64,000 nucleotides of DNA from Rhizomonospora bruguierae (GTDB taxonomy: Bacteria; Actinomycetota; Actinomycetes; Mycobacteriales; Micromonosporaceae), in the NCBI RefSeq assembly GCF_018397995.1, contig NZ_BBQH01000018.1, positions 62,001 through 126,000 of the forward strand, read 5' to 3'. The translations under genes and the position numbers were made by a program. Position 1 is the stretch's first letter, and each line of letters opens with the position of its first letter. Positions 33,420 through 46,445 of the stretch are shown here, in pieces. The notes beneath the pieces were generated by a model that was not told where the DNA came from, did no database searches, and saw only the letters and a list, made by a program, of their open reading frames with translations.

Positions 33420-36188
33420 ATGACCGCACGCCTGACCGTTGTGAAGCCGGAACCCGCCCGGGTGGCCACGGGGCCACCGCCGGCGCGCCGGGTGCTGGTG
33501 GTCTCGGCCGAGATCGGCGGGGGGCACGACGCGACCGGCCGGGCGCTGGAGGAGCGGGTCGCGCGGCTGTGGCCGGGCAGCGCCATCCGTTGGGTGGACA
33601 CGCTGGCGGCGATGGGGCCGGGGGTCGGGCGGGCCATCCGCCGCACCTACGTCACGAACGTCGACAGCGTCCCGTGGCTGTACGAGTTCTTCTACGCCTC
33701 GGTCTGGCGGCACCGGTGGTTCGGCTCCGCCGCCAAGCGGTTCGTCGGCGCGTGGGCGGGGCGGCGGCTGGCCGGTGTGGTCGAGGGCTTCGACCCCGAC
33801 CTGATCCTGTCCACCTACCCCCTGGGCAGCGCCGGCCTGGCCTGGCTGCGGCGGCACCGGGGCCTGGCGGTGCCGGTCGGCGCGTGGATCTCGGACTTCG
33901 CGCCGCACCCCTTCTGGGTGTACCCGCAACTGGACCTCAACCTGGTCGTGCACGACACCGCCGCGCCGCTGGCCGCGGCGGCCGCCCCGGGCGCGGCCGT
34001 GGCGGTGTGCCCGCCGCCGGTGGTCGAGGCGTTCCACCCGGGCGACCCGGTGCCCGCGCGCCAGCGCCTGGGCCTGGACCCGCACCGGCCCGTGGTGCTG
34101 GTGGCCTGCGGGTCGCTCGGGTTCGGCGAGGTGGAGGAGGCGGTACGGGCGCTGGCCGGCGACGGGCCACCCGGCATCGCCGGCGACCCGGCGGCCGGCA
34201 GCCAGGTGGTGGTGGTCTGCGGGCGGAACGAGCGGCTGGCCGGGCGGCTGGCGGCGCTCGACCTGCCCCCGGACCGGCTGACCGTGCTGGGCTGGGCGGA
34301 CACCATGCCGGACCTGTTGCGGGCCGCCGACGTGCTGGTCAACAACGCCGGCGGCGCGACCGCCCTGGAGGCGGTGGCCAGCGGCACGCCGGTGGTCATG
34401 TACCGACCGATCGCCGCGCACGGCGTGGCGAACGCGGCGCTGATGACCGTCTGTGGGCTGGCCGAGACCTGCCACACCCCCGCCGCGCTGGCCACCACCG
34501 TACGGGCGGTGCTGCGCCGCCGGCGCGTCGGGGCCGGACCACGCACCGCCGTCGAAAACGCGCCGGACCTGGGCCTGCGGGCGCTCAGCGACGCCCCGCC
34601 GCCGCCCGCCGCCAGGCCGGCGAACGCCTGGCCGCTGCGCGCGCCGGACGCGTTCTTCCTGCACGTCGAGTCACCGACGGTGGTCCAGCAGGTCGGTACC
34701 GTGCTGGACATCGGGCCCATTCCGGACCGGCGCCCCCTTCGCCGGGACGACGTGCTCGACGTGCTGCGGCGGCGGCTGCCCGCCATGGTGACGCTGCGCC
34801 GGCGGCCGGTGCGGACGGCCTCCTGGCGCCGGGCCGGCTGGGTCGTCGAGCGCCACGTGGACCCGGCCGCGCACGTGGACGAGCGGCCGGTACCCGGCGG
34901 CGGTGAGCCGGCCGCCGCCCGGCTCCTCGACGAGTTCTGGTCCCAGCCGATGCCCCTGGACGCGCCGCCGTGGCGGATGCTCCTGCTCACCGGGCTGCCC
35001 GGGGGCCGCACCCGGCTGGCGATCAAGATGCACCACAGCCTCGGCGACGGCATGGCGGTCCTCGCCACCATGCGGCGCATCCTGGACCCCCACCCCGGCG
35101 GCACGGCACAGGGTTCGATGACCCCGCGCCGGGAGACGGTGGCCGGCCGGATCCGCGGCGGGCTCCGGGCGGCGGTGCTGACCGGGCGAGGACTCGTCCG
35201 CCTGGCCTTCGCCGGGCCGGCCCCGCGCAGCGCGCTCAACCGCCCGCTGACCACCCCGGACCGCCGCCTCGTCACCGCGACGCTGCCCATGGCGAGCCTG
35301 AACCGGGCGGCCCGGGCGTGCGACGTGCGCGTCAGCGAACTGCTGTACGGGCTCGTGGCCGAGGCGCTGCGCGCCACCTACCCCGCCGCGCCGGTACCCG
35401 ACCGGCTGCGGGCCACGGTCCCGGTCGCCCGCACGCCCCGGGAGCGCTGGCGCACGCACGGCAACTGGACCGGCGCCGTCGCGCTCGACCTGCCGCTGGG
35501 CCCGATGTCCACCCCGGCGCGGGCGGCCCTGATCCGCGACCGGCTGCGCCGGAGCCTCGACGCGGGCGAGCAGCATGCGGCGGGACTGGTGATGCGGGCG
35601 ATCGGCACGCTGCCCGCGCCGGCGCACGCCTGGCTGGCCCGCCGCCTCTACACGAACCGGTTCACCAACGTGAACGTCTCCTACGTCATCGGCACCCGGA
35701 AGGCGCTGACGCTGGCCGGGGCGCCGGTCGTGGGCGCCGTCCCGGTCATCGCCCTGGCCGAGGGCGTACCCGTCGGGATCGGCGCCATGCGCTGGGAGGA
35801 CACCATCGGGGTGGGCGTGCTGCTGGACTCCTCGCTGGCCGGGTTCGGCGAGGCGTTCACCGTGGCCCTGCACGCCGCCCTCGACGGGATCGCCGGTGAA
35901 CCCCCGGCTCCCGCCGCCGCGGCCATGGGCGAGCCCTCGGATCGCGTTGCCGCCGTCATTGACGAACCCCCAGACCGCGTTGCCGCCGTCATGGGCGAGC
36001 CCTCGGACCGCGTTGCGGCGGTCATGCGCGAGCGCCCGGATCACGCCGCCGCAGTCGTAGGCGAGGGCCCGGATCGCGCCGCCGCCGTCGTAGGCGAGGG
36101 CCCGGATCGCGCCGCCGGGATGATTGGCGAGGCTCCGGCTCATGCCGCGCCCACGGCGGCCGCCCAGGCCCGGGAGGCCGCCGGGTGA
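33420..36188 (+). CDS. Fusion: GT28/MGDG-synthase-type glycosyltransferase + WS/DGAT acyltransferase
   Basis: 922 residues. Residues ~22-385 are a glycosyltransferase of the MGDG synthase/processive diacylglycerol glucosyltransferase kind: VLVVSAEIGGGHDATGRALEE, LGWADTMPDLLRAADVLVNNAGGATALEAVASGTP. After a proline-rich linker, residues ~408-825 are a wax-ester synthase/diacylglycerol acyltransferase: PDAFFLHVESPT, the catalytic HHSLGDG at 538-544, RLRATVPV, NRFTNVNVSYVIG. A tail of 11-residue repeats follows (836-909). Such enzymes act on lipids at the inner membrane face. A single chain could glycosylate and acylate one lipid, but that is inference. Operon start behind a SigB/SigF-type promoter. 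Confidence 0.88.
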   Translation: MTARLTVVKPEPARVATGPPPARRVLVVSAEIGGGHDATGRALEERVARLWPGSAIRWVDTLAAMGPGVGRAIRRTYVTNVDSVPWLYEFFYASVWRHRWFGSAAKRFVGAWAGRRLAGVVEGFDPDLILSTYPLGSAGLAWLRRHRGLAVPVGAWISDFAPHPFWVYPQLDLNLVVHDTAAPLAAAAAPGAAVAVCPPPVVEAFHPGDPVPARQRLGLDPHRPVVLVACGSLGFGEVEEAVRALAGDGPPGIAGDPAAGSQVVVVCGRNERLAGRLAALDLPPDRLTVLGWADTMPDLLRAADVLVNNAGGATALEAVASGTPVVMYRPIAAHGVANAALMTVCGLAETCHTPAALATTVRAVLRRRRVGAGPRTAVENAPDLGLRALSDAPPPPAARPANAWPLRAPDAFFLHVESPTVVQQVGTVLDIGPIPDRRPLRRDDVLDVLRRRLPAMVTLRRRPVRTASWRRAGWVVERHVDPAAHVDERPVPGGGEPAAARLLDEFWSQPMPLDAPPWRMLLLTGLPGGRTRLAIKMHHSLGDGMAVLATMRRILDPHPGGTAQGSMTPRRETVAGRIRGGLRAAVLTGRGLVRLAFAGPAPRSALNRPLTTPDRRLVTATLPMASLNRAARACDVRVSELLYGLVAEALRATYPAAPVPDRLRATVPVARTPRERWRTHGNWTGAVALDLPLGPMSTPARAALIRDRLRRSLDAGEQHAAGLVMRAIGTLPAPAHAWLARRLYTNRFTNVNVSYVIGTRKALTLAGAPVVGAVPVIALAEGVPVGIGAMRWEDTIGVGVLLDSSLAGFGEAFTVALHAALDGIAGEPPAPAAAAMGEPSDRVAAVIDEPPDRVAAVMGEPSDRVAAVMRERPDHAAAVVGEGPDRAAAVVGEGPDRAAGMIGEAPAHAAPTAAAQAREAAG
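35925..36146 (+). repeat. 33-bp tandem repeat encoding the tail of the fusion protein
   Basis: About seven degenerate 33-base units encode 11-residue repeats such as GEPSDRVAAVM, DEPPDRVAAVM and GEGPDRAAAVV. The DNA periodicity is clear; later copies diverge. Probably a flexible or protein-binding tail. Confidence 0.75.
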
Positions 36189-37126
36189 GCGCCCTGTCGG
36201 TCGTCGCGGGTGTGCCCCTCGCCGTGGCGTCCGCCGGCTGCTTCGGCTCCTCGGGCGTGCTCCAGTACCGGGCCACCCACCAGGTGCCGGACCGGCCGGC
36301 GGGCCAGCCCGCGCTGCTGACCGACCTGGTCCGCCTGCCGTCGTGGCGGTGGTCGATCGTGCTCGCCACCGCCGGGTTCGGGTTCCAGGTCGTGGCCCTG
36401 CGACTGGCACCGCTGAGCCTGATCCAGCCGCTGCTGGTGACCGGCGTGCTGTGGTACGTGCTGCTGTCGGCCCGGGTGTACCACCGCCCGCCCGACCGGA
36501 TCATCGTCACGGGCACGGTGCTGTGCCTGGCCGGCCTCACCACGTTCCTGGTGGTGGCCGACCCGTCGGCGGGCATGCGCGGCCATCATCGCCCGGCCGC
36601 CGGCCTGGTCCTGTTCCTGGTGCTCGGCGGCATGATCGTGGCCTGCCTGGCCCTGTCCCGGGTGATGGGGCGCAAGTGGCGGTCCCTGCCGCTGTCGCTC
36701 GCCGCCGGGATCTGCTACGGCCTGACGGCCGGGTTCGTCCGCGACCTGTCCCCCCACCTCACGCAGGGGCCCCTCGCGATCGCCCGGCAGTGGCAGACGT
36801 ACACGATCTGCGGGCTCGGGCCGCTCGGGGTGCTGCTCAACCAGAACTCGTACCAGGCGGGCTGGATCGGCGCACCGGCGCTGGCGGTCATCACCGTCGT
36901 CGACCCGCTGGTGTCCATCATTTTCGGCACGGTGTGGCTGGGCGAGAGCGTCCGGGGCGGCACCTGGCCGATCATCGGCGAGTCGCTGGGCCTGATCATC
37001 CTCGCCGGCGGGGTGCTGCTGCTGGCCCTGCGCGCGCCGCACGTGGCGGGCACCCCCGTCCCGGACGGGCACAACCACCCGGACCGGCCGGCGGACAAGT
37101 CGGAGGGCGCGACCCATGCGGGTTGA
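36185..37126 (+). CDS. DMT/EamA-superfamily membrane protein (transporter-like)
   Basis: 313 residues from a GTG overlapping the fusion-gene stop by four bases. Nine to ten transmembrane helices; VALRLAPLSLIQPLLVTGVLWYVLLSARV and DPLVSIIFGTVWLGESV are the paired DMT-superfamily signatures. A hydrophilic, histidine-containing tail (DGHNHPDRPADKSEG) ends the protein. Coupling to a lipid-modifying enzyme suggests export or flipping of a lipid or precursor; this is inferred from context. Confidence 0.85.
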   Translation: MSALSVVAGVPLAVASAGCFGSSGVLQYRATHQVPDRPAGQPALLTDLVRLPSWRWSIVLATAGFGFQVVALRLAPLSLIQPLLVTGVLWYVLLSARVYHRPPDRIIVTGTVLCLAGLTTFLVVADPSAGMRGHHRPAAGLVLFLVLGGMIVACLALSRVMGRKWRSLPLSLAAGICYGLTAGFVRDLSPHLTQGPLAIARQWQTYTICGLGPLGVLLNQNSYQAGWIGAPALAVITVVDPLVSIIFGTVWLGESVRGGTWPIIGESLGLIILAGGVLLLALRAPHVAGTPVPDGHNHPDRPADKSEGATHAG

Positions 37127-37859
37127 CGGGGCGGTGGCGCTGGTGACCGGGGCGTCCTCCGGCATCGGACGCCGGCTCGCGACGCGGCTGGTCGACTCGG
37201 GGGCCCGGGTCTTCGCCCACGGCCGCGACCCGGCCGCCCTGGCCGAGGTGCCCGGCGCCACCCCGATCGCCATGGACCTGGCCGACCCGTCCGCCCCACG
37301 GGCGCTGGCCCGCCGGGTGCTCGACCTGGCCGGCCGGGTGGACCTGCTGGTCAACAACGCGGGCGCGGGTTGGGCCGGCCCGTTCGCGGACCTGCCCCCC
37401 GAGGACCTGGACCGGCTGCTCGCGGTCAACCTGCGCGCGCCCGCGCACCTGACCCGGGCGGTCCTGCCGGGCATGCTCGACCGCGGCCGGGGCCGGTTGC
37501 TGTTCGTCGGCTCGATCGCCGGGCGCCTCGGGGTGCGCGAGGAGGCCGTATACGCGGCGGCCAAGGCGGGCCTGGACGTGTTCGCGGAGAGCCTGCGCCT
37601 GGAACTGGCCGGCACCGGCGTCGGGGTGACGGTCGTGGTGCCGGGTGTGGTCGACACCCCGTTCTTCGAGCGGCGCGGCCTGCCGTACCGGCGCCGGCGG
37701 CCGCGACCGCTGCCGGTCGAGCGGGTCGCCGAGGCGGTGCTGGACGCGGTCGAGGCGGACCGGCCCGAGGTGTACCTGCCGGCGTGGCTGCGCCTGCCGG
37801 TGGCGGTGCGGGCGCTGGCACCCGGCGGCTACCGGCGGCTCACCCGCCGCTTCGGGTGA
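37116..37859 (+). CDS. Short-chain dehydrogenase/reductase
   Basis: 247 residues, classical SDR: TGASSGIGRRLATRL (cofactor loop), LLVNNAGAGWAG, active-site serine in FVGSIAGR, catalytic YAAAK in VYAAAKAGLDVFAESLRLEL, then VVVPGVVDTPFF. The start overlaps the transporter gene by 11 bases. Sequence wording is close to SDRs acting on acyl chains or sugars in lipid clusters. The gene converges with hpnH across a 37-base gap. Confidence 0.9.
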   Translation: MRVDGAVALVTGASSGIGRRLATRLVDSGARVFAHGRDPAALAEVPGATPIAMDLADPSAPRALARRVLDLAGRVDLLVNNAGAGWAGPFADLPPEDLDRLLAVNLRAPAHLTRAVLPGMLDRGRGRLLFVGSIAGRLGVREEAVYAAAKAGLDVFAESLRLELAGTGVGVTVVVPGVVDTPFFERRGLPYRRRRPRPLPVERVAEAVLDAVEADRPEVYLPAWLRLPVAVRALAPGGYRRLTRRFG

Positions 37860-37896: not shown

Positions 37897-38904
37897 TCAC
37901 GCGCCGCCGCGCAGCGCCCGGATCGACTCCTTCAGCGACGACATGGTCGCCATGACGGCCGTGGGCTCGTAGCCACAGTGCGCCATGCAGTTGGCGCAGC
38001 GCGGGTCGCGGCCGCGCCCGTACTGATCCCAGTCCGTGCTCTCCAGCAGTTCCCGGTAGGAGGCCGCGTACCCGTCGCCCATCAGGTAGCAGGGCCGCTG
38101 CCAGCCGAGCAGGGAGTAGGACGGGATGGCCCAGGCGGTGCACGGAAAGTCCACCCGGCCCTCGAGGAAGTCGAGGAACATCGGCGAGTGGCTCAGCCGC
38201 CACCGGCGGCGCCGGCCGTTCGCGAACGCCTTGCGGAACAGTTCCCGGGTCTCCGCCACCCCGAGGAAGTGCTCCTGGTCCGGCGCCTTCTGGTACGCGT
38301 ACGCCGGGGAGATCATCATTTCGTCGACCCGCAGGTCGTCGTTGAGGTAGTCGAGCACCTCGATGATGGTCTGCGGGGTGTCGGTGTTGAAGAACGTGGT
38401 GTTCGTGGTGACCCGGAAGCCGCGCCGCTGCGCCTCGCGCACCGCCGCCACCGCCTCGTCGAAGACGCCCGGCTTGCACACCGAGGCGTCGTGCCGGTCC
38501 CGCAACCCATCGATGTGGACGGTGAACGCGAAGTACGGCGACGGGCGGAACAGGTCCAGCTTCTTCGGCAGCAGCAGCGCGTTGGTGCACAGGAAGACGT
38601 ACCGGCGCCGGGCGATCAGCTCGCCCACCATCCGGTCGATCTCGGGGTGCATGAGCGGCTCCCCGCCCGCGATCGAGACCATCGGCGCGCCGCACTCCTC
38701 GACCGCGGCGACCGCCTGCTCCACCGGCATGCGCTGGCGCAGCAACTGGGCCGGCTGCTGGATCTTGCCGCAGCCGGCGCACTTGAGGTTGCAGGCGAAC
38801 AGCGGCTCCAGTTCCAGCAGCAGCGGGAACCGTTCCCGGTGCCGCAGCCGGTTGGCCATCAGGTACCGGCCGACCCGCAGCCGTTGACGCAGCGGAATCC
38901 CCAT
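37897..38904 (-). CDS. hpnH: Adenosyl-hopene transferase, radical SAM (HpnH)
   Basis: 335 residues, normal HpnH length. The radical-SAM cysteines are in LFACNLKCAGCGKIQQP (about residues 38-45); VSIAGGEPLMHPEI is the SAM-binding GGEP. The C-terminal CTAWAIPSY and CANCMAHCGYEPTAV cysteines match HpnH. It joins the adenosyl radical to diploptene, making adenosylhopane, the first step of extended hopanoids. Last gene of the hopanoid operon. Confidence 0.95.
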   Translation of the reverse strand: MGIPLRQRLRVGRYLMANRLRHRERFPLLLELEPLFACNLKCAGCGKIQQPAQLLRQRMPVEQAVAAVEECGAPMVSIAGGEPLMHPEIDRMVGELIARRRYVFLCTNALLLPKKLDLFRPSPYFAFTVHIDGLRDRHDASVCKPGVFDEAVAAVREAQRRGFRVTTNTTFFNTDTPQTIIEVLDYLNDDLRVDEMMISPAYAYQKAPDQEHFLGVAETRELFRKAFANGRRRRWRLSHSPMFLDFLEGRVDFPCTAWAIPSYSLLGWQRPCYLMGDGYAASYRELLESTDWDQYGRGRDPRCANCMAHCGYEPTAVMATMSSLKESIRALRGGA

Positions 38905-38920: not shown

Positions 38921-40444
38921 CTAGGCCGGGCGTACCTCCTTCGGCAGCGTGAAGTGGACGTCCTCGGTGGCGCGCACGCGCTCGTCGACCTCGCCCGCGC
39001 CCAGGCCGCGCAGCACGGCCACGGTCTGGTCGACCAGCCGGGGCGGCGCGGAGGCCCCGGCGGTCACCCCGACCGCGGTGGCGCCGGCCAGCCAGCGCGG
39101 GTCGATGGCGTCGGCGTCCTCGACCAGGTACGCCGGGGTGCCCGCGCGCTCCGCCACCTCCACCAGCCGGCGCGAGTTCGACGAGTTGCCCGAGCCGAGC
39201 ACCAGCACGACGTCGGACTCCGCCGCGATCGCGCGCACGGCCCGCTGCCGGTTGGTGGTGGCGTAGCAGATGTCGTCGGAGCCCGGGCCGGCCAGCGCCG
39301 GGAAGCGCCGGCGCAGCACGGCCACGACCTCCTCCGCCTCGTCCACCGCGAGCGTGGTCTGCAGCAGGTACGACACCCGCTCCGGATCCTCCACGGTGAC
39401 CCGCTCGGCCGCCGCCGCGTCCGGCACCAGGCGCACCCGGTCCGGCGCCTCGCCCTGGGTGCCCTCGGTCTCCTCGTGGCCCGGGTGCCCGACCAGCAGC
39501 ACCGTGTCGCCGCGGCCGGCGAACCGGCGTGCCTCGCTGTGCACCTTCGTCACCAGCGGGCAGGTGCCGTCGATGACCGACAGTTGCCGGTCGGCCGCCT
39601 CGGCCCGGACGGCCGGGGCCACGCCGTGCGCGGAGAACACGGTGACGGCGCCGTTGGGCACCTCGTCCAGGTCGTCGACGAAGACCGCCCCCCGGTCCCG
39701 CAGGGCCGCCACGACGTGGGCGTTGTGGACGATCTGCTTGCGCACGTACACCGGCGCGCCGTACCGGTCGAGCGCCTGCTCCACGACCGTGATGGCCCGC
39801 TCCACGCCGGCGCAGAACGAGCGCGGCGAGGCGAGCAGGACCTGGCGCACCGTGGCCGCCGCGGACCACTCGGCCAGCCCGGCGGCGACCGGCGGAAGGG
39901 AGCGCAGGGCCCGGCGGATGTGCGCGAGCGTGATGGGGCGCAGCACGTGACCCGGCGCCGGATCGGCCACCACCCGCACGCACGCCGGTACCGCGCCGGG
40001 GCGGGCGGACAGCACCCAGGCGGATTCCAGGTCGGCGGCGAGGGCGCCGGTGGCCGCCAGCCGCTCCCGCTGCGCGCCGGACGCGAGCCGGTCGGTGCTG
40101 ACCATCGGTCCAACATGGACGGTCAGCCCGCGCCGGCGCAGGGCGGCGGCGAGCAGCGGCGCGGCGGGTAGGTGGAGCGTCGCCGGGATCGCGCCCTCGG
40201 TCAGCGCGTCCGTGCGGACCTCGTCGGCGACCACCACGTCGCCGGGGCGCAGCTCCGGGTCCAGCCCGCCGCACATCCCCGCGACCGCCATCACCGGCGG
40301 CACGGTCCCGGCCCGGAACGCCTGCCGCGCCCGCCGGGCCCCCACGCCGGTCCGGTGAACGTGGCCGTCACCGTCGGGCAGCCCGGCCCGCAGCGCCCGC
40401 GTCTCCATCCGCATCGGCGCGTAGATCGCCCATCCAGCCGTCAC
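38921..40444 (-). CDS. ispH: Fusion: hopanoid-associated phosphorylase (HpnG-like) + IspH reductase
   Basis: 507 residues from a GTG. Residues 1-~195 are a nucleoside-phosphorylase domain ([41 protein letters not shown]) like HpnG, which removes adenine from adenosylhopane. Residues ~200-500 are a complete IspH with its three Fe-S cysteines: [34 protein letters not shown], plus [12 protein letters not shown]. IspH makes IPP/DMAPP in the MEP pathway. The fusion links the first precursor step to a late hopanoid step in one polypeptide. Overlaps the shc stop by four bases. Confidence 0.93.
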
Positions 40445-42360
40445 GTCAACTCCCCCACCTCTCGGAGTACCCGCCCCAGGGCGCTGATCGGGAACACCTG
40501 CCGGTACAGGTGGTAGTTGATGGAGAAGTCGCCGGGGAAGCCGGTCCCGGTGTACTGCGGCTCATCCCAGCCGCCGTCGGGGCGTTGGGTGGTCACCAGC
40601 CAGTCCACCGCCCGCCGGACCGCCTCGGTATCGGACTGCCCGGCGGCGTGCAGGGCGAGCAGCCCCCACGCGGTCTGGGACGCGGTGGAGCCGCCGCGGC
40701 CGATCCAGGCGGGGTCGCGGTAGGAGCGGATGTCCTCGCCGAAGCCGCCGTCGTCGTTCTGGTGGCACAGCAGCCAGGCCACGGCCGCCGCGACCGCCGG
40801 GTGCGTCGGCGGCAGCCCGGCGGCGCGCAACGCGGGCAGCACCGCGCCGATCCCGTAGACGTGGTTGACGCCCCACCGGCCGAACCAGGACCCGTCCGGG
40901 CGCTGGTCGCGCAGCAGCCACGCCACGCCCCGCTCGACCGGGGTCGAGCCGGCGAGCCCCTCGACGCACAGCGCCTCCACGATGTGGGCGGTGACGTCCG
41001 CGCTGGGCGGGTCGATGACCTCACCGAAATCGCAGAACGGCAGATCGGCGAGTATCCGCCGGGTGTTGTCGGCGTCGAAGGCGCCCCAGCCGCCGTCGCG
41101 GGACTGCATGCCGCACAGCCACCGCACGCCCCGTCGCAGCGCGGCGCTGGCCGGGACCGCCGTGCGCCGCAGCGCCAGCATCACCTCGGCGGTGTCGTCG
41201 GTGTCCGGGTAGTTGACGTTGTCGAACTCGAACGCCCACCCGCCGGCCGGCAGCCCGGGGCGGCGCACCGCCCAGTCCCCGCGCACGGTGATCTCCTCGC
41301 GGAGCAGCCACCGCCCGGCCTGGCCCAGGGCGGGGTGGTCGGCCGGCAGCCCCGCGTCGGACAGGGCGGTGACCGCCAGGGCCGTATCCCACACCGGGGA
41401 CTGGCACGCCTCCAGCCAGCGGGCCGGCCCCTCGGGCGTGTCGGTGTGGACGGTGAACCGCTCCAGCCCGGCCAGGCCGCGCCGCATCACGGGGTGGTCG
41501 AGCGGGCAGCCGAGCAGGTGCAGCGCGATGAGCGAGTACACCCACGGCGGCTGGATGCCGCCCCAGGAGCCGTCCGCCTCCTGCCGGGCCACGATCCAGG
41601 CGGCGGCGCGGCGCAGGGCGTGCTGGCGCAGCGGCGCGGGCACCAGGTGGTCGTACCCGGCGGCCAGCCGGTCCAGCCGGTGCAGCTTGCCCGCCGTCGT
41701 GCCCAGCGGCGGTGGCGGCGGGGGCGTGCGGTAGGTGCGCAGCTCGTCCAGCCGGAAGCCCAGCGGGCGCACCGGGCGCAGCGCGCGCACCACCGACAGC
41801 GGCACGACGGTCTGCCGCGCCCAGCACCCGAAGTCGTAGACGCTGAGCGGCGACCAGGTGGGCAGCAGGACCAGTTCCGGCGGGATCGCGGGCAGTCCCC
41901 GCCACGGCCACTGCCCGAACAGCGCCAGCCAGATGCGGGTGAACACCCGGCTGGACTCGATGCCGCCGGCGTCCAGGATCGCCTCCCGCGCGGCGCGCAT
42001 GTGCCCCGCGTCGGGTGGGTCGCCGGCCAGCCGCAGCGCGGTGTACGCCTCGATGTTGGTGGACAGGTCCGACGGTCCATCATGGAACGTCGCCCAGCTG
42101 CCGTCGTCGCGCTGCTGGGAACGGATCCACCGGGCGGTGCGCTCGGTGTCGCCACCGGTGCGGATGCCGAGGAACTGGCGCAGCAGCAGATCCTCGGCGT
42201 CCATGGTGACGTTGGTCTCCAGGTCGCCCTTCCACCAGCCGGCCGGGTCCTGCCGGCCGAGCAGGTGCTGCACCGCCCGGTCCAGGGTGTGCCGGGCGGA
42301 ACCCCAGTCCGGTCCGGTGGGCGCCGCGTCGCCGCGGTGGCCGGTGAGCAACTGGGTCAT
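40441..42360 (-). CDS. shc: Squalene-hopene cyclase
   Basis: 639 residues, standard SHC length. The protonating DxDD is DTDD at 386-389. Multiple QW repeats occur ([63 protein letters not shown]). Cyclises squalene to hopene/hopanol at the membrane. Start ATG 42360 overlaps the prenyl synthase stop by one base (TGATG on the coding strand), so translation is coupled. Confidence 0.97.
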
Positions 42361-43358
42361 CAGTGGTCCCGCCCAACCACGCGGACGGCCAGATTGGCCA
42401 GTTCCCGACGGACGTCCTCGGGCAGCTCGAGCCGGTCCAGCCCGCTGATCGCCGAGCGGACCCGCCGCGACGCGTACTGGGTGGTCCACTCCCGGGCTCC
42501 GCTCAGCTCGATGAGCCGCGCCAGCTCGCCCTCGTCCGCGCCGGCCTTCTCCCGGTACCGCAGCGCGAACTCCCGGCCCGCCGGGGTGTCCGACGTCGCG
42601 GCACGCACCGTCGGTACCGTCCACTTGCGAGCGGCCAGGTCCGATCCGACCGGCTTGCCGGTCCGCTCCGGCTCGCCCCAGATGCCCAGCAGGTCGTCGA
42701 CGAGCTGGAAGGCCAGGCCGATCTGCTCGCCGAACCGGGACAGCCCGGCGACCAGGTCGGCCGGCGCGCCGCAGATCAGCGCGCCCAGCGTGCAGGCGCA
42801 GGAGATCAGCGCGCCGGTCTTGTCCGCGGCCATCCGCAGGCACTCGTCCAACCCGACCGCCTCGCGCCCCTCGAACTCCAGGTCGGCGGCCTGGCCGGCG
42901 GTCAGCCGGGCGACCGCGGCGCCGAGCCGGCGGGTGGCGGCACCCCCGTTGGGCGCGTCGATGAGCACGTCGTACGCCAGGCTCTGCAACGCGTCCCCGG
43001 CCAGCAGCGCCGGACCCGGGCCGAACACCGCCCAGGCCGTGGGGCGGTGCCGGCGCTCGGTGTCCGCGTCGATGAGATCGTCGTGCAGCAGCGAGAACGT
43101 GTGCACCAACTCGACCGACACGGCGGCCGGCACCGCCAGGTCGAGCGGCGCGCCGGCGGCCCGCGCCGAGAGCAGCGCCAGCGCCGGGCGCAGCCCCTTG
43201 CCGCCGGCCTCGGCGGGCTCGCCGTCCGCGTCCCAGAAGCCGATCTGGTAACCGGCCACGAGGCGGTTGCGCTGGTCCAGCCGGTCCAGCAGCGCCCGCA
43301 TGGCCGGCTGCACCCGGCTGCGGACCTGATCGGCGGTGTCGACGGTGCTGAGGGTCAT
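42360..43358 (-). CDS. Polyprenyl diphosphate synthase (FPP/GGPP type)
   Basis: 332 residues. First aspartate-rich motif LLHDDLIDAD (DDxxD), GKGLRPALALLSA near the N-terminus, and a second motif LAFQLVDDLLGIWGEP with DDLLG in place of DDxxD, as seen in some actinobacterial homologues. It supplies farnesyl diphosphate for HpnC/HpnD in this operon. Chain length is not deducible with certainty. Overlaps hpnE by four bases. Confidence 0.92.
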   Translation of the reverse strand: MTLSTVDTADQVRSRVQPAMRALLDRLDQRNRLVAGYQIGFWDADGEPAEAGGKGLRPALALLSARAAGAPLDLAVPAAVSVELVHTFSLLHDDLIDADTERRHRPTAWAVFGPGPALLAGDALQSLAYDVLIDAPNGGAATRRLGAAVARLTAGQAADLEFEGREAVGLDECLRMAADKTGALISCACTLGALICGAPADLVAGLSRFGEQIGLAFQLVDDLLGIWGEPERTGKPVGSDLAARKWTVPTVRAATSDTPAGREFALRYREKAGADEGELARLIELSGAREWTTQYASRRVRSAISGLDRLELPEDVRRELANLAVRVVGRDH

Positions 43359-44713
43359 CGCGGTGCCTCCGGAGGTCGGGGCCGGCCGGACAGGTGATGG
43401 GCGGCGACCTCCGCGGCCTGCTGGCCACTGCGCACGGCGCCTTCCATCGTGTCGGGCCAGCCGGTATCGGTCCACGCGCCGGCCAGAGCCAGGCCGGGCA
43501 GCGCGGTGCGCGGGCCGGGCCGCAGCGACCGGGATCCCGGCGCCGGGCGGAACGTGGCATGCGGTTCGCGGGTCACGAACGCGTCGAGCAGGCGGGTCGA
43601 CCGGGCCGCCGGGAACAGGTCGGCCAGCGCCGCCGCCTGCTCCCGGACCAGCGCGGCCGCCGGCCGGGCCACCTGCGCGTCCGCGGCCGACAGCGACACG
43701 ACCAGGTACTGGCCGCGCTCGCAGCCGGGCCCGGACCGGTCGAACACCCACTGGGTGGGCGACTCGACGGCGGCGGCGAACGGCAGGTCGGTGACCGGGC
43801 GGGAGTAGCGCAGGTGGACGTTGACGATCGGGGACGAGCCCAGCCCCGCCCACCGACCCGGGTCGGCCACCGCGCCCGGCGGGACGAGGTGGGCCGCGAT
43901 CCGGTGCGGCACGGCGAGCACCACGCCACCGGCGCTGACGGCGGCGGTCCCGGTGTCGACGGTGAACCCGCCGGGGCCGGCGCTGATCCCCCGCGCCCGG
44001 GTCCGGGTCAGCACCCGCACGCCCATCCGCTCCAGCAGCGCGCGGGCCGCCCCGCCGTGCAGGTCCGCCAGCGGGACCGTGGGCCGGCCGATGTCGCCCG
44101 CGTCCGCCCGCTCCAGCAGCCCGGTCCGGAACACCCGGGCGGCCGAGGCCAGCGACGCCCGCTCCGAGGCGAGGTTCAGGGACGCGACCGCGATGAGGTC
44201 CCACAGGTACCGCACGGCGCGGGGCCCCTGGCCGTGCGACCGCAGCCACGCGCCGAAGGTCGTCGCGTCGTTGGCCCGCTCGTCCGGGTCGACGCGGCGC
44301 AGCGCGGCCGCCGCCCGCACCGCGGCCAGCCGCTCCCCGCCGCTGAGCAGCCGGTACCGGGTGAGCGCGCCGAGCAGGTGCAGTGGGGCCGGCAGGTCAC
44401 CCCGGACGAGGGTGTGCGGCGGCCGGCCGGGCGACAGCACGGGCACCGCGAACCGGTCCTGGAGTTCCACGCTACCGGCCACACCGAGCCGGTCCAGCAG
44501 TTCCCGGTACCGGTGGTAGCAGCGCAGGAAGACGTGCTGACCGGTGTCGGCGACCAGGTCGCCGCGGCGGAGCGAACGGGCCGCCCCGCCGAACTCCGGC
44601 CGCGCCTCCAGCATGGTCACCCGGGCGCCCCGGTCGGCCAGGCGCACGGCCGCCGCGATCCCGGCCAGCCCGCCCCCGACCACGCACACGTCGGTACCCC
44701 CCGCGCGGCTCAT
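43355..44713 (-). CDS. hpnE: Hydroxysqualene dehydroxylase / squalene-associated FAD desaturase (HpnE)
   Basis: 452 residues. N-terminal FAD-binding VCVVGGGLAGIAAAVRLADRG, then ARPEFGGAARS; the family TGQHVFLRCYHRYRELLDRLG and C-terminal LALAGAWTDTGWPDTMEGAVRSGQQAA are diagnostic of HpnE. It reduces hydroxysqualene to squalene. Overlaps the neighbouring genes by four bases on both sides. Confidence 0.95.
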   Translation of the reverse strand: MSRAGGTDVCVVGGGLAGIAAAVRLADRGARVTMLEARPEFGGAARSLRRGDLVADTGQHVFLRCYHRYRELLDRLGVAGSVELQDRFAVPVLSPGRPPHTLVRGDLPAPLHLLGALTRYRLLSGGERLAAVRAAAALRRVDPDERANDATTFGAWLRSHGQGPRAVRYLWDLIAVASLNLASERASLASAARVFRTGLLERADAGDIGRPTVPLADLHGGAARALLERMGVRVLTRTRARGISAGPGGFTVDTGTAAVSAGGVVLAVPHRIAAHLVPPGAVADPGRWAGLGSSPIVNVHLRYSRPVTDLPFAAAVESPTQWVFDRSGPGCERGQYLVVSLSAADAQVARPAAALVREQAAALADLFPAARSTRLLDAFVTREPHATFRPAPGSRSLRPGPRTALPGLALAGAWTDTGWPDTMEGAVRSGQQAAEVAAHHLSGRPRPPEAPR

Positions 44714-45576
44714 GCGCCGGTCCCGGCCAGCGCCCGCACGGCCACCCATGCCTTCTCGCGGGTCGGCAGCGCCACCCGCTGCCGGGTCACCGCGAGCGGG
44801 TTCGCGCTGATGCGGGCGAGCAGGCGGTGGTAGATGCCGGCCATCGCCGCGGTGCAGGCGCCGCTGCGCCGGTCCAGCAGCGGCAGCAGGCGCAGCCCGT
44901 CCTCGTACCAGTCCTCGGCGCGCCGCGCCTGGTAGGTCAGCAGCGCCGTCAGCCGGTACGGCGGGTCGGTCAGCCGCCCGTCGCGCAACTCCAGCTCGCA
45001 GCCGAACCGGCGCAGGTCCGCGGCGGGCAGGTAGACCCGCTGCTGGGTGCGGTCCTCGACCACGTCGCGGAGGATGTTCGTCAACTGCAACGCCACGCCG
45101 AGGGTGTCGGCCAGCGGGCGGGCGGCGTCCGGGTCGGCGGCACCGAACACGCCCAGCGAGAGCCGGCCGATCGAGCCGGCGACGCTGCGGCAGTACCAGA
45201 GCAGGTCGTCGAAGCTGTCGTAGCCGCGCCCCCGCACGTCCGCCGCGCAGCCGTCGATCAGCTCGTCGAACGCCTCCAGCGGGATCGGCAGCCGCCGGGC
45301 GGCGTCGACCAGCGCGGCCAGCACGGGGTCGCCGGCGCCCCCGTCGCCGCCGGCGATCCCGTGCAGCCCGGCGCGCACGCCGTCGAGCAGGACGAGCTTG
45401 CGCTCGGCCGGCAGGTCGCCGTCGCCGATGTCGTCGATGCGCCGGGCCATCGCGTACACCGCGGACAGGGCGCGGCGCTTGACCGGCGGCAGCAGCCGGA
45501 TGCCGTACGAGAAGTTGCGGGCCTGCTGGCGGGTGATCAGCTGGCACTGCCGGTAGGCGGCGTCCACATCGGTCAT
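44710..45576 (-). CDS. hpnD: Presqualene diphosphate synthase (HpnD)
   Basis: 288 residues, squalene/phytoene synthase fold. ITRQQARNFSYGIRLLPPVKRRAL, the first Asp-rich AMARRIDDIGDGD, and the second LTNILRDVVEDR are intact. It condenses two farnesyl diphosphates to presqualene diphosphate. Starts within the hpnC stop (ATGA overlap). Confidence 0.95.
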   Translation of the reverse strand: MTDVDAAYRQCQLITRQQARNFSYGIRLLPPVKRRALSAVYAMARRIDDIGDGDLPAERKLVLLDGVRAGLHGIAGGDGGAGDPVLAALVDAARRLPIPLEAFDELIDGCAADVRGRGYDSFDDLLWYCRSVAGSIGRLSLGVFGAADPDAARPLADTLGVALQLTNILRDVVEDRTQQRVYLPAADLRRFGCELELRDGRLTDPPYRLTALLTYQARRAEDWYEDGLRLLPLLDRRSGACTAAMAGIYHRLLARISANPLAVTRQRVALPTREKAWVAVRALAGTGA

Positions 45577-46445
45577 CCGGCGCTCCTGACCGTCGCGGCG
45601 ACCCAGTGTGCGAGCACGAGCCGGGAGCTGCGCCCCGGCGGTTCGCGCAGCGAGTCGTGCCCGGTGCGGGCCAGCGCGGTCAGCGCCGCGCGCCCGCCGG
45701 CCAGGTAGCCGCTGACCGCCAGCCGGGCCCAGCCGCGCAGGGTGGCGACGAGCGGCGCCCCCGACGTCAGCCACGCCGCGGCCCGTTCGGCCTCGAACGC
45801 GACCAGGGCGCGCAGCGCCGGTCCGGCGCTACCGGCGTCCAGGTCCGCCTCCGTGACCCCGAACCGGTCCAGATCCTCGGCCGGCAGGTACACCCGGCCG
45901 CGACGGCGGTCCTCGCCCACGTCCTGGAGATGCTCGACCAGTTGCAGCCCGGTGCAGACACGGTCGGACAGCGCCACCTGCTCCGGCCGCGGCGTACCGA
46001 ACACGTGCAGGACCAGCCGGCCCACCGGGTCCGCCGAGAAGGTGCAGTAGTCGACCAGCCGCTCGAACGTGTCGTACCGGGTCACCAACTGGTCGATCCG
46101 GTTGGCCTCGATCAGGCGCAGCAGCGGCGCCATCGGCAGGCCCCGCTCGACCACCGCGGGTCCCAGGCGCGCGACGGCCGCCAGGGTGACCGGGCGACCG
46201 GCGTACAGGTCGTGCACCTGCGCCTCGACCGCGTCGAGGGCCGCCAGCCGCTCGGCCCGGCCCACGCCGGGCACCGGCTCGTCGCCGAGGTCGTCCAGCA
46301 TCCGCGCGTACCCGTAGACCGCGTGCAGATGCCGGCGCACGCGACCCGGCAGGACGCGCAGGGCCACCGGGAAGTTCTCCCCCGCCCGCACGCCGTCCGG
46401 ATCGCGAAGCCCCGCCAAGGGCGCCGCCTCCAACAGGCTCATCAC
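45573..46445 (-). CDS. hpnC: Hydroxysqualene synthase (HpnC)
   Basis: 290 residues from the GTG at 46445 (ATG at 46442 equally possible). GENFPVALRVLPGRVRRHLHAVYGYARMLDDLGDE carries the first Asp-rich motif; QLVEHLQDVGEDRRRGRVYLP the second. It converts presqualene diphosphate to hydroxysqualene. First gene of the hopanoid operon; the leader starts at a SigB/SigF-type promoter. Confidence 0.95.
   Translation of the reverse strand: MMSLLEAAPLAGLRDPDGVRAGENFPVALRVLPGRVRRHLHAVYGYARMLDDLGDEPVPGVGRAERLAALDAVEAQVHDLYAGRPVTLAAVARLGPAVVERGLPMAPLLRLIEANRIDQLVTRYDTFERLVDYCTFSADPVGRLVLHVFGTPRPEQVALSDRVCTGLQLVEHLQDVGEDRRRGRVYLPAEDLDRFGVTEADLDAGSAGPALRALVAFEAERAAAWLTSGAPLVATLRGWARLAVSGYLAGGRAALTALARTGHDSLREPPGRSSRLVLAHWVAATVRSAG

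Follow-up and report, generated by a model that had tools for sequence, protein, structure and literature searches.

A single protein encoded by Rhizomonospora bruguierae joins a GT28-type glycosyltransferase (GT) to a WS/DGAT acyltransferase (WS), and fusions of this kind occur almost only in hopanoid-making bacteria. It lies in the window, the 64,000-nt stretch of contig NZ_BBQH01000018.1 that was analyzed. The fusion, its conservation, its intact catalytic motifs, its predicted folds, its linkage to hopanoid genes, and its near-complete co-occurrence with hopanoid synthesis were directly observed. The reading we prefer, with slightly better than even confidence, is that the fusion is a bifunctional hopanoid-tailoring enzyme yielding an acyl-glycosyl-hopanoid; the acceptor, the sugar, the acyl position, the order of steps, and the role of a flippase are inferred.

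The fusion is one uninterrupted open reading frame of 922 residues with an ATG start (Table 1). Its GT half passes the Pfam cut-offs for MGDG_synth (residues 56-181, 3.8e-11) and Glyco_tran_28_C (225-361, 5.8e-6), and its WS half those for WS_DGAT_cat (407-638, 3.7e-19; 70 bits vs. a gathering score of 23.6) and WS_DGAT_C (681-822, 7e-11; 42.8 bits vs. 20.7). Both domains, their GT-then-WS order, and the HHSLGDG motif had been claimed in the initial annotation, and all are present. In NCBIfam, the WS half scored 170.9 bits with TIGR02946 (acyl_WS_DGAT), below the cut-off of 309.95, so we did not classify the protein as a wax ester/TAG synthase of that subfamily. For the GT half, NCBIfam ranked PRK13609 (diglucosyl-DAG synthase) highest, at 118.8 bits against a cut-off of 500, and the HpnI profile was not among the NCBIfam matches of the fusion protein. 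The window genome gave no second WS/DGAT match besides the fusion. Conservation starts near residue 20 and covers residues ~20-830, while residues ~833-922 form a non-conserved tail, with an in-frame 33-bp tandem repeat, that lies outside the conserved enzyme.

Table 1. Features of the fusion gene and its neighborhood, in window positions
Feature	Position	Strand	Evidence
GT28-type glycosyltransferase / WS-DGAT fusion enzyme	33420..36188	+	single ORF, Pfam, 63 further single-chain homologues, AF2 model
Glycosyltransferase domain, residues ~20-393, MGDG_synth + GT28_C, GT-B fold	33477..34598	+	Pfam, MGD1 4wyi fold match, invariant residues
WS/DGAT acyltransferase domain, residues ~404-830	34629..35909	+	Pfam; 6chj and 7nxg fold matches
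HHSLGDG acyltransferase active-site motif, residues 538-544	35031..35051	+	HHxxxDG positions H538, H539, D543, G544
33-bp tandem repeat, 6.6 copies, disordered C-terminal tail	35901..36117	+	TRF; low pLDDT from residue 833
DMT-family transporter, candidate flippase	36185..37126	+	NF038012 DMT_1 above cut-off; start overlaps fusion stop (GTGA)
Short-chain dehydrogenase/reductase (SDR), candidate for hopanoid side-chain reduction	37116..37859	+	Pfam adh_short
HpnH, adenosyl-hopene transferase	37897..38904	-	TIGR03470 above cut-off
HpnG-like phosphorylase fused to IspH	38921..40414	-	one chain, also in other loci
Squalene-hopene cyclase (SHC)	40441..42360	-	TIGR01507 above cut-off
Polyprenyl diphosphate synthase	42360..43358	-	family-level matches below cut-offs
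HpnE, hydroxysqualene dehydroxylase	43355..44713	-	TIGR03467 above cut-off
HpnD, presqualene diphosphate synthase	44710..45576	-	TIGR03465 above cut-off
HpnC, squalene synthesis	45573..46442	-	TIGR03464 above cut-off

One genome scan returned 118 relatives, and the best 80 were kept, a set biased to close relatives. A profile search for both domains across genomes had been proposed as a check on the original idea; domain scans of these best 80 of 118 plus the window identified 64 single-chain GT-WS fusions, window included. The non-fusion loci among the best 80 of 118 were 11 with the GT alone, one of them (L051) a gene cut by a contig end, and six with a PAP2-WS fusion. Over all fetched loci, 71 GT-WS single ORFs were counted, including a few duplicate records. 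The hosts are Micromonospora, Actinocatenispora, Actinopolymorpha, Kutzneria, Saccharopolyspora, Amycolatopsis, Prauserella, Intrasporangium, Arthrobacter, Sinomonas, and several MAGs, and the homologues are about 39-60% identical to the window protein. The GT-WS fusion is not an oddity but is conserved in several actinobacterial families. The same domain order in one ORF in independent genomes rules out a frameshift or an assembly chimera, so the join is not an assembly artifact.

Among the columns that do not vary in 40 fusions are G33, G35, H36, D159, E317, H334, and G335 in the GT half and H539, D543, G544, G681, and N682 in the WS half. Every GT-fused WS domain used for the tree (35/35) retains HHxxxDG; for the fusion at L014, a simple pattern scan did not show the motif. 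A degenerate domain was ruled out by the conservation of catalytic motifs in both halves. The initial annotation held that one dead domain in all homologues would refute it, and the catalytic positions are instead kept in both. Judged from these residues, both halves look active, although catalysis itself is inferred.

Structure prediction, another check that had been suggested, recovered both domain folds: both were predicted confidently in an AlphaFold2 model built from 65 sequences (mean pLDDT 88.9, pTM 0.87). In structure comparisons, which were also run with Foldseek, the WS half matched 6chj (Z 37.4 over 350 residues, 2.9 A) and 7nxg (Z 35.8), and the closest solved structure to the GT half was MGD1, 4wyi (Z 28.2 over 319 residues, 3.4 A). 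Likeness of fold to 6chj, 7nxg, and 4wyi does not show function.

These matches also feed the main rival explanation, which we consider unlikely, that the product is an acylated glycosyl-diacylglycerol. The GT would then act on DAG as UgtP or MGDG synthase does, the WS half would esterify the sugar, and the hopanoid genes would adjoin only because both remodel the membrane. MGD1 as the nearest GT structure and PRK13609 as the best NCBIfam match fit such a role, as does the known ability of WS/DGATs to acylate DAG. A lipidome of Paenarthrobacter, which has an MGDG-synthase-type gene, contains MGDG esters and "acylhexosyl sterols" by mass annotation (PMC11719660), a lead only, with no link to the fusion gene shown. 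Yet the PRK13609 score is far under its cut-off, and the donor loop differs: MGD1 and 9wde carry a Q-E pair where H334-G335 was found in all 64 GTs compared (37/37 fused, 17/17 hopanoid-cluster, and 10/10 Amycolatopsis). With H-G in place of Q-E, MGDG synthase is not a safe guide to the donor sugar or the acceptor.

In the window, the fusion stop overlaps the DMT start at 36185 and the DMT gene overlaps the SDR gene by 11 bp, from which we infer that the three genes are probably co-transcribed. A scan for sigma-70 promoters and terminators found none. A full hopanoid cluster, HpnH to HpnC, lies convergent to the three genes. IspH, here in one chain with the HpnG-like phosphorylase, is the last enzyme of the MEP pathway, and the same single chain recurs in 21 first-set loci as well as in many other hopanoid clusters. 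Catalytic residues N105, S133, Y146, and K150 of the SDR were present in 48/48 homologues, and the SDR is a candidate, its function inferred, for the reduction of ribosylhopane to bacteriohopanetetrol. It was also observed beside HpnH in clusters without GT or WS (L130, L135, L136, L140, L142) and is absent from the Streptomyces cluster L147.

Hopanoid genes were found within 8 kb of the fusion in 52/64 cases, a DMT gene within 1.5 kb in 59/64, and an SDR gene within 2.5 kb in 57/64 (window plus fusions from the best 80 of 118 relatives); the other 12/64 fusions had no hopanoid cluster in view. The linkage was seen in several families with differing gene orders, so it is not simply shared local synteny. 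SHC was present in 77/80 scan genomes (best 80 of 118), 39 at the locus and 38 elsewhere, meaning that 38 of the 41 genomes without SHC at the locus have it elsewhere; among fusion genomes of this set other than the window's, the count was 61/63. The three scan genomes without SHC are two MAGs (L037 and L023) and the draft at L051, where the contig ends inside the gene. Next to its fusion, L023 has genes for HpnE, polyprenyl synthase, and squalene synthesis. For comparison, the background rate of SHC was 29/101 in sampled members of the family Micromonosporaceae, and that of HpnH was 92/395 in genomes of the class. In the Micromonosporaceae sample, 8/8 genomes with the fusion or a split form had SHC (hypergeometric 2e-5, uncorrected for relatedness, four genera); these co-occurrence statistics ignore phylogeny. 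A protein search of 80 sampled HpnH-negative genomes gave neither fusions nor WS matches at 1e-30, while GT-alone homologues appeared in 6/80, so the GT type is not hopanoid-specific. Two side observations concern hopanoid genes themselves: many genomes of one family (f20) have a second HpnH gene away from the hopanoid cluster in addition to the one inside it (L138/L139 of G100; L148/L149 of G356), and one locus (L115, G422:C16) has a divergent squalene-hopene cyclase with no other hopanoid gene in view.

The hopanoid link is strong. It had been guessed from a single neighboring operon and has since gained support from SHC co-occurrence, from linkage in several families, and from sister GT-only and PAP2-WS forms in hopanoid clusters. 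A general glycerolipid enzyme would not be expected to co-occur near-completely with SHC, which further weakens the diacylglycerol alternative. Given its near-restriction to hopanoid makers, the fusion probably decorates a hopanoid with a sugar and a fatty acyl group. This distribution does not identify the acceptor, however. An HpnO-like aminotransferase was sought as an acceptor clue, but the best own match had 44% identity and covered only part of the query. Another isoprenoid of the same cluster, squalene or carotenoid-like, could be the acceptor, giving a staphyloxanthin-like acyl-glycosyl isoprenoid. HpnC/D/E of the cluster resemble carotenoid enzymes and carotenoids with glycosyl-ester groups are well-established lipids, but we hold this to be very improbable, with SHC kept in nearly all of the best 80 genomes, HpnH in many of the clusters, and no carotenoid gene among the conserved neighbors.

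We also inspected 60 regions surrounding hopanoid genes and their GT/WS relatives, 51 of which had SHC or HpnH in view. Among those 51, 17 had a stand-alone GT28, 10 a PAP2-WS fusion, one a GT-WS fusion, and 23 no module in view, the last including Streptomyces as well as Actinocatenispora, whose fusion is elsewhere in the genome. DMT and SDR genes were nearly always present in the 17 stand-alone GT28 regions and mostly in the 10 PAP2-WS regions. The PAP2-WS protein, a PAP2_3 membrane domain joined to WS/DGAT, is a second uncommon fusion, located in the hopanoid clusters of Phytohabitans and Actinoplanes, among others (L076, L077, L078, L081, L090, L095, L100, L103, L105-L107, L109, L123, and L124).

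In the WS tree, the GT-fused domains form one clade (SH-aLRT support 99), sister to the PAP2-fused domains (97) and apart from 32 stand-alone WS/DGATs (94). The idea of an ordinary TAG/wax synthase that acquired a GT is not favored, the WS clade being separate and tied to hopanoids. In the GT tree, the fused GTs are a clade sister to the stand-alone GTs of hopanoid clusters, with the Amycolatopsis GT-alone proteins nested inside the fused clade, which implies that the WS half was lost there. Both trees are quick searches. Together with the cluster contents, they indicate that the hopanoid clusters of actinobacteria have a slot for tailoring in which one module can stand in for another, the modules having either the GT or the WS in common.

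The existence of these modules apart bears on whether the two halves cooperate. They could act independently on the hopanoid side chain, the GT on one fraction and the WS on a free hydroxyl (or amine) of bacteriohopanetetrol or a relative, giving separate glycosyl- and acyl-hopanoids. GT alone and PAP2-WS hold the same slot in other hopanoid clusters, and at L116 (5838-12108) the GT and WS are separate genes ~3.4 kb apart. We nonetheless think this improbable, as clusters with only a GT or a PAP2-WS show merely that the steps can be separate, and the long-kept single chain with its well-defined predicted arrangement suggests that a product is handed to the other site. At the split locus, DMT genes lie between the GT and WS genes, and a squalene-synthase-like gene follows the WS gene.

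For the preferred acyl-glycosyl-hopanoid synthase, the proposed route would begin with bacteriohopanetetrol, made from diploptene via HpnH, HpnG, and a reductase, perhaps the neighboring SDR. The GT-B domain would transfer a sugar from a nucleotide donor to a C35 hopanoid polyol, most likely this one, and the WS/DGAT domain, through its HHxxxDG histidine, would then esterify a hydroxyl with a fatty acyl group taken from acyl-CoA; the probable site is a hydroxyl of the newly attached sugar. The product, an acyl-glycosyl-hopanoid, would be a bacterial counterpart of acyl steryl glycosides, and the overlapping DMT protein, a likely flippase, may move it across the membrane. An acylated glycolipid "in one step" had been suggested at the outset; the single chain stands, but the wording is loose, as there would be two chemical steps. 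Counting against a hopanoid product are the absence of lipid or enzyme data and the fact that the best GT profiles and fold belong to DAG glycosyltransferases.

Each half has known relatives. With bacterial WS/DGATs of the AtfA/Tgs type (TIGR02946, PF03007; 6chj, 7nxg), the fusion shares the fold and HHxxxDG active site, but it differs in its attached GT, its tie to hopanoid genes, its separate clade, and its sub-cut-off TIGR02946 score. With DAG glycosyltransferases of the MGDG synthase/UgtP type (PF06925; 4wyi, 9wde), it shares the GT-B fold, a GxGH motif, and a conserved donor-site Glu, and differs in the donor loop, the fused acyltransferase, and the hopanoid linkage. If the proposal holds, it shares with HpnI/HpnK/HpnJ of Proteobacteria a glycosyltransferase that decorates bacteriohopanetetrol (PMC12583986), although that route has no acyltransferase and the fusion no HpnI profile among its NCBIfam matches. 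The nearest chemical parallel is the acyl steryl glycosides of Borrelia and Helicobacter, in which a sterol-like lipid is glycosylated and then acylated (PMC8168883, PMC8549234); there, the sterol is host-derived, the glycosyltransferase is a separate protein, and the paper on Borrelia had not identified the acyltransferase. Acyl-glycosyl bacteriohopanetetrols and acylated side chains are known lipids, and the N-acylglucosaminyl-bacteriohopanetetrol of Alicyclobacillus demonstrates that a glycosylated and acylated hopanoid exists, although this lipid of a Bacillota member differs in carrying its N-acyl group on an amino sugar (PMC8537080). No description of a GT-WS fusion or of a hopanoid acyltransferase was found in the open-access literature, to which our search was limited, so "undescribed" means not found there. 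With that restriction, the architecture and the pathway assignment appear undescribed, while each domain family was already known.

Hopanoids, the sterol counterparts of bacteria, give rise to geological biomarkers. Outside Proteobacteria, their late tailoring is largely without assigned genes, and the fusion, SDR, and DMT offer testable candidates for acylated glycosyl hopanoids and their export. The enzyme converting ribosylhopane to bacteriohopanetetrol is not established, and the companion SDR is possibly a candidate for that step (PMC12583986). Our results suggest that the GT-fused clade is misannotated where it is labeled as storage-lipid (WS/DGAT) enzymes. We give about even chances to the fuller claim that the fusion synthesizes an acyl-glycosyl-hopanoid with a single chain and is the first enzyme assigned to acylated glycosyl hopanoids. 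In that claim it is also one of three interchangeable tailoring modules (GT-WS, GT alone, PAP2-WS) that actinobacteria insert into their hopanoid clusters, accompanied by a flippase of the DMT family and a reductase of the SDR family. If true, these actinobacteria would have a bacterial parallel to the synthesis of acyl steryl glycosides.
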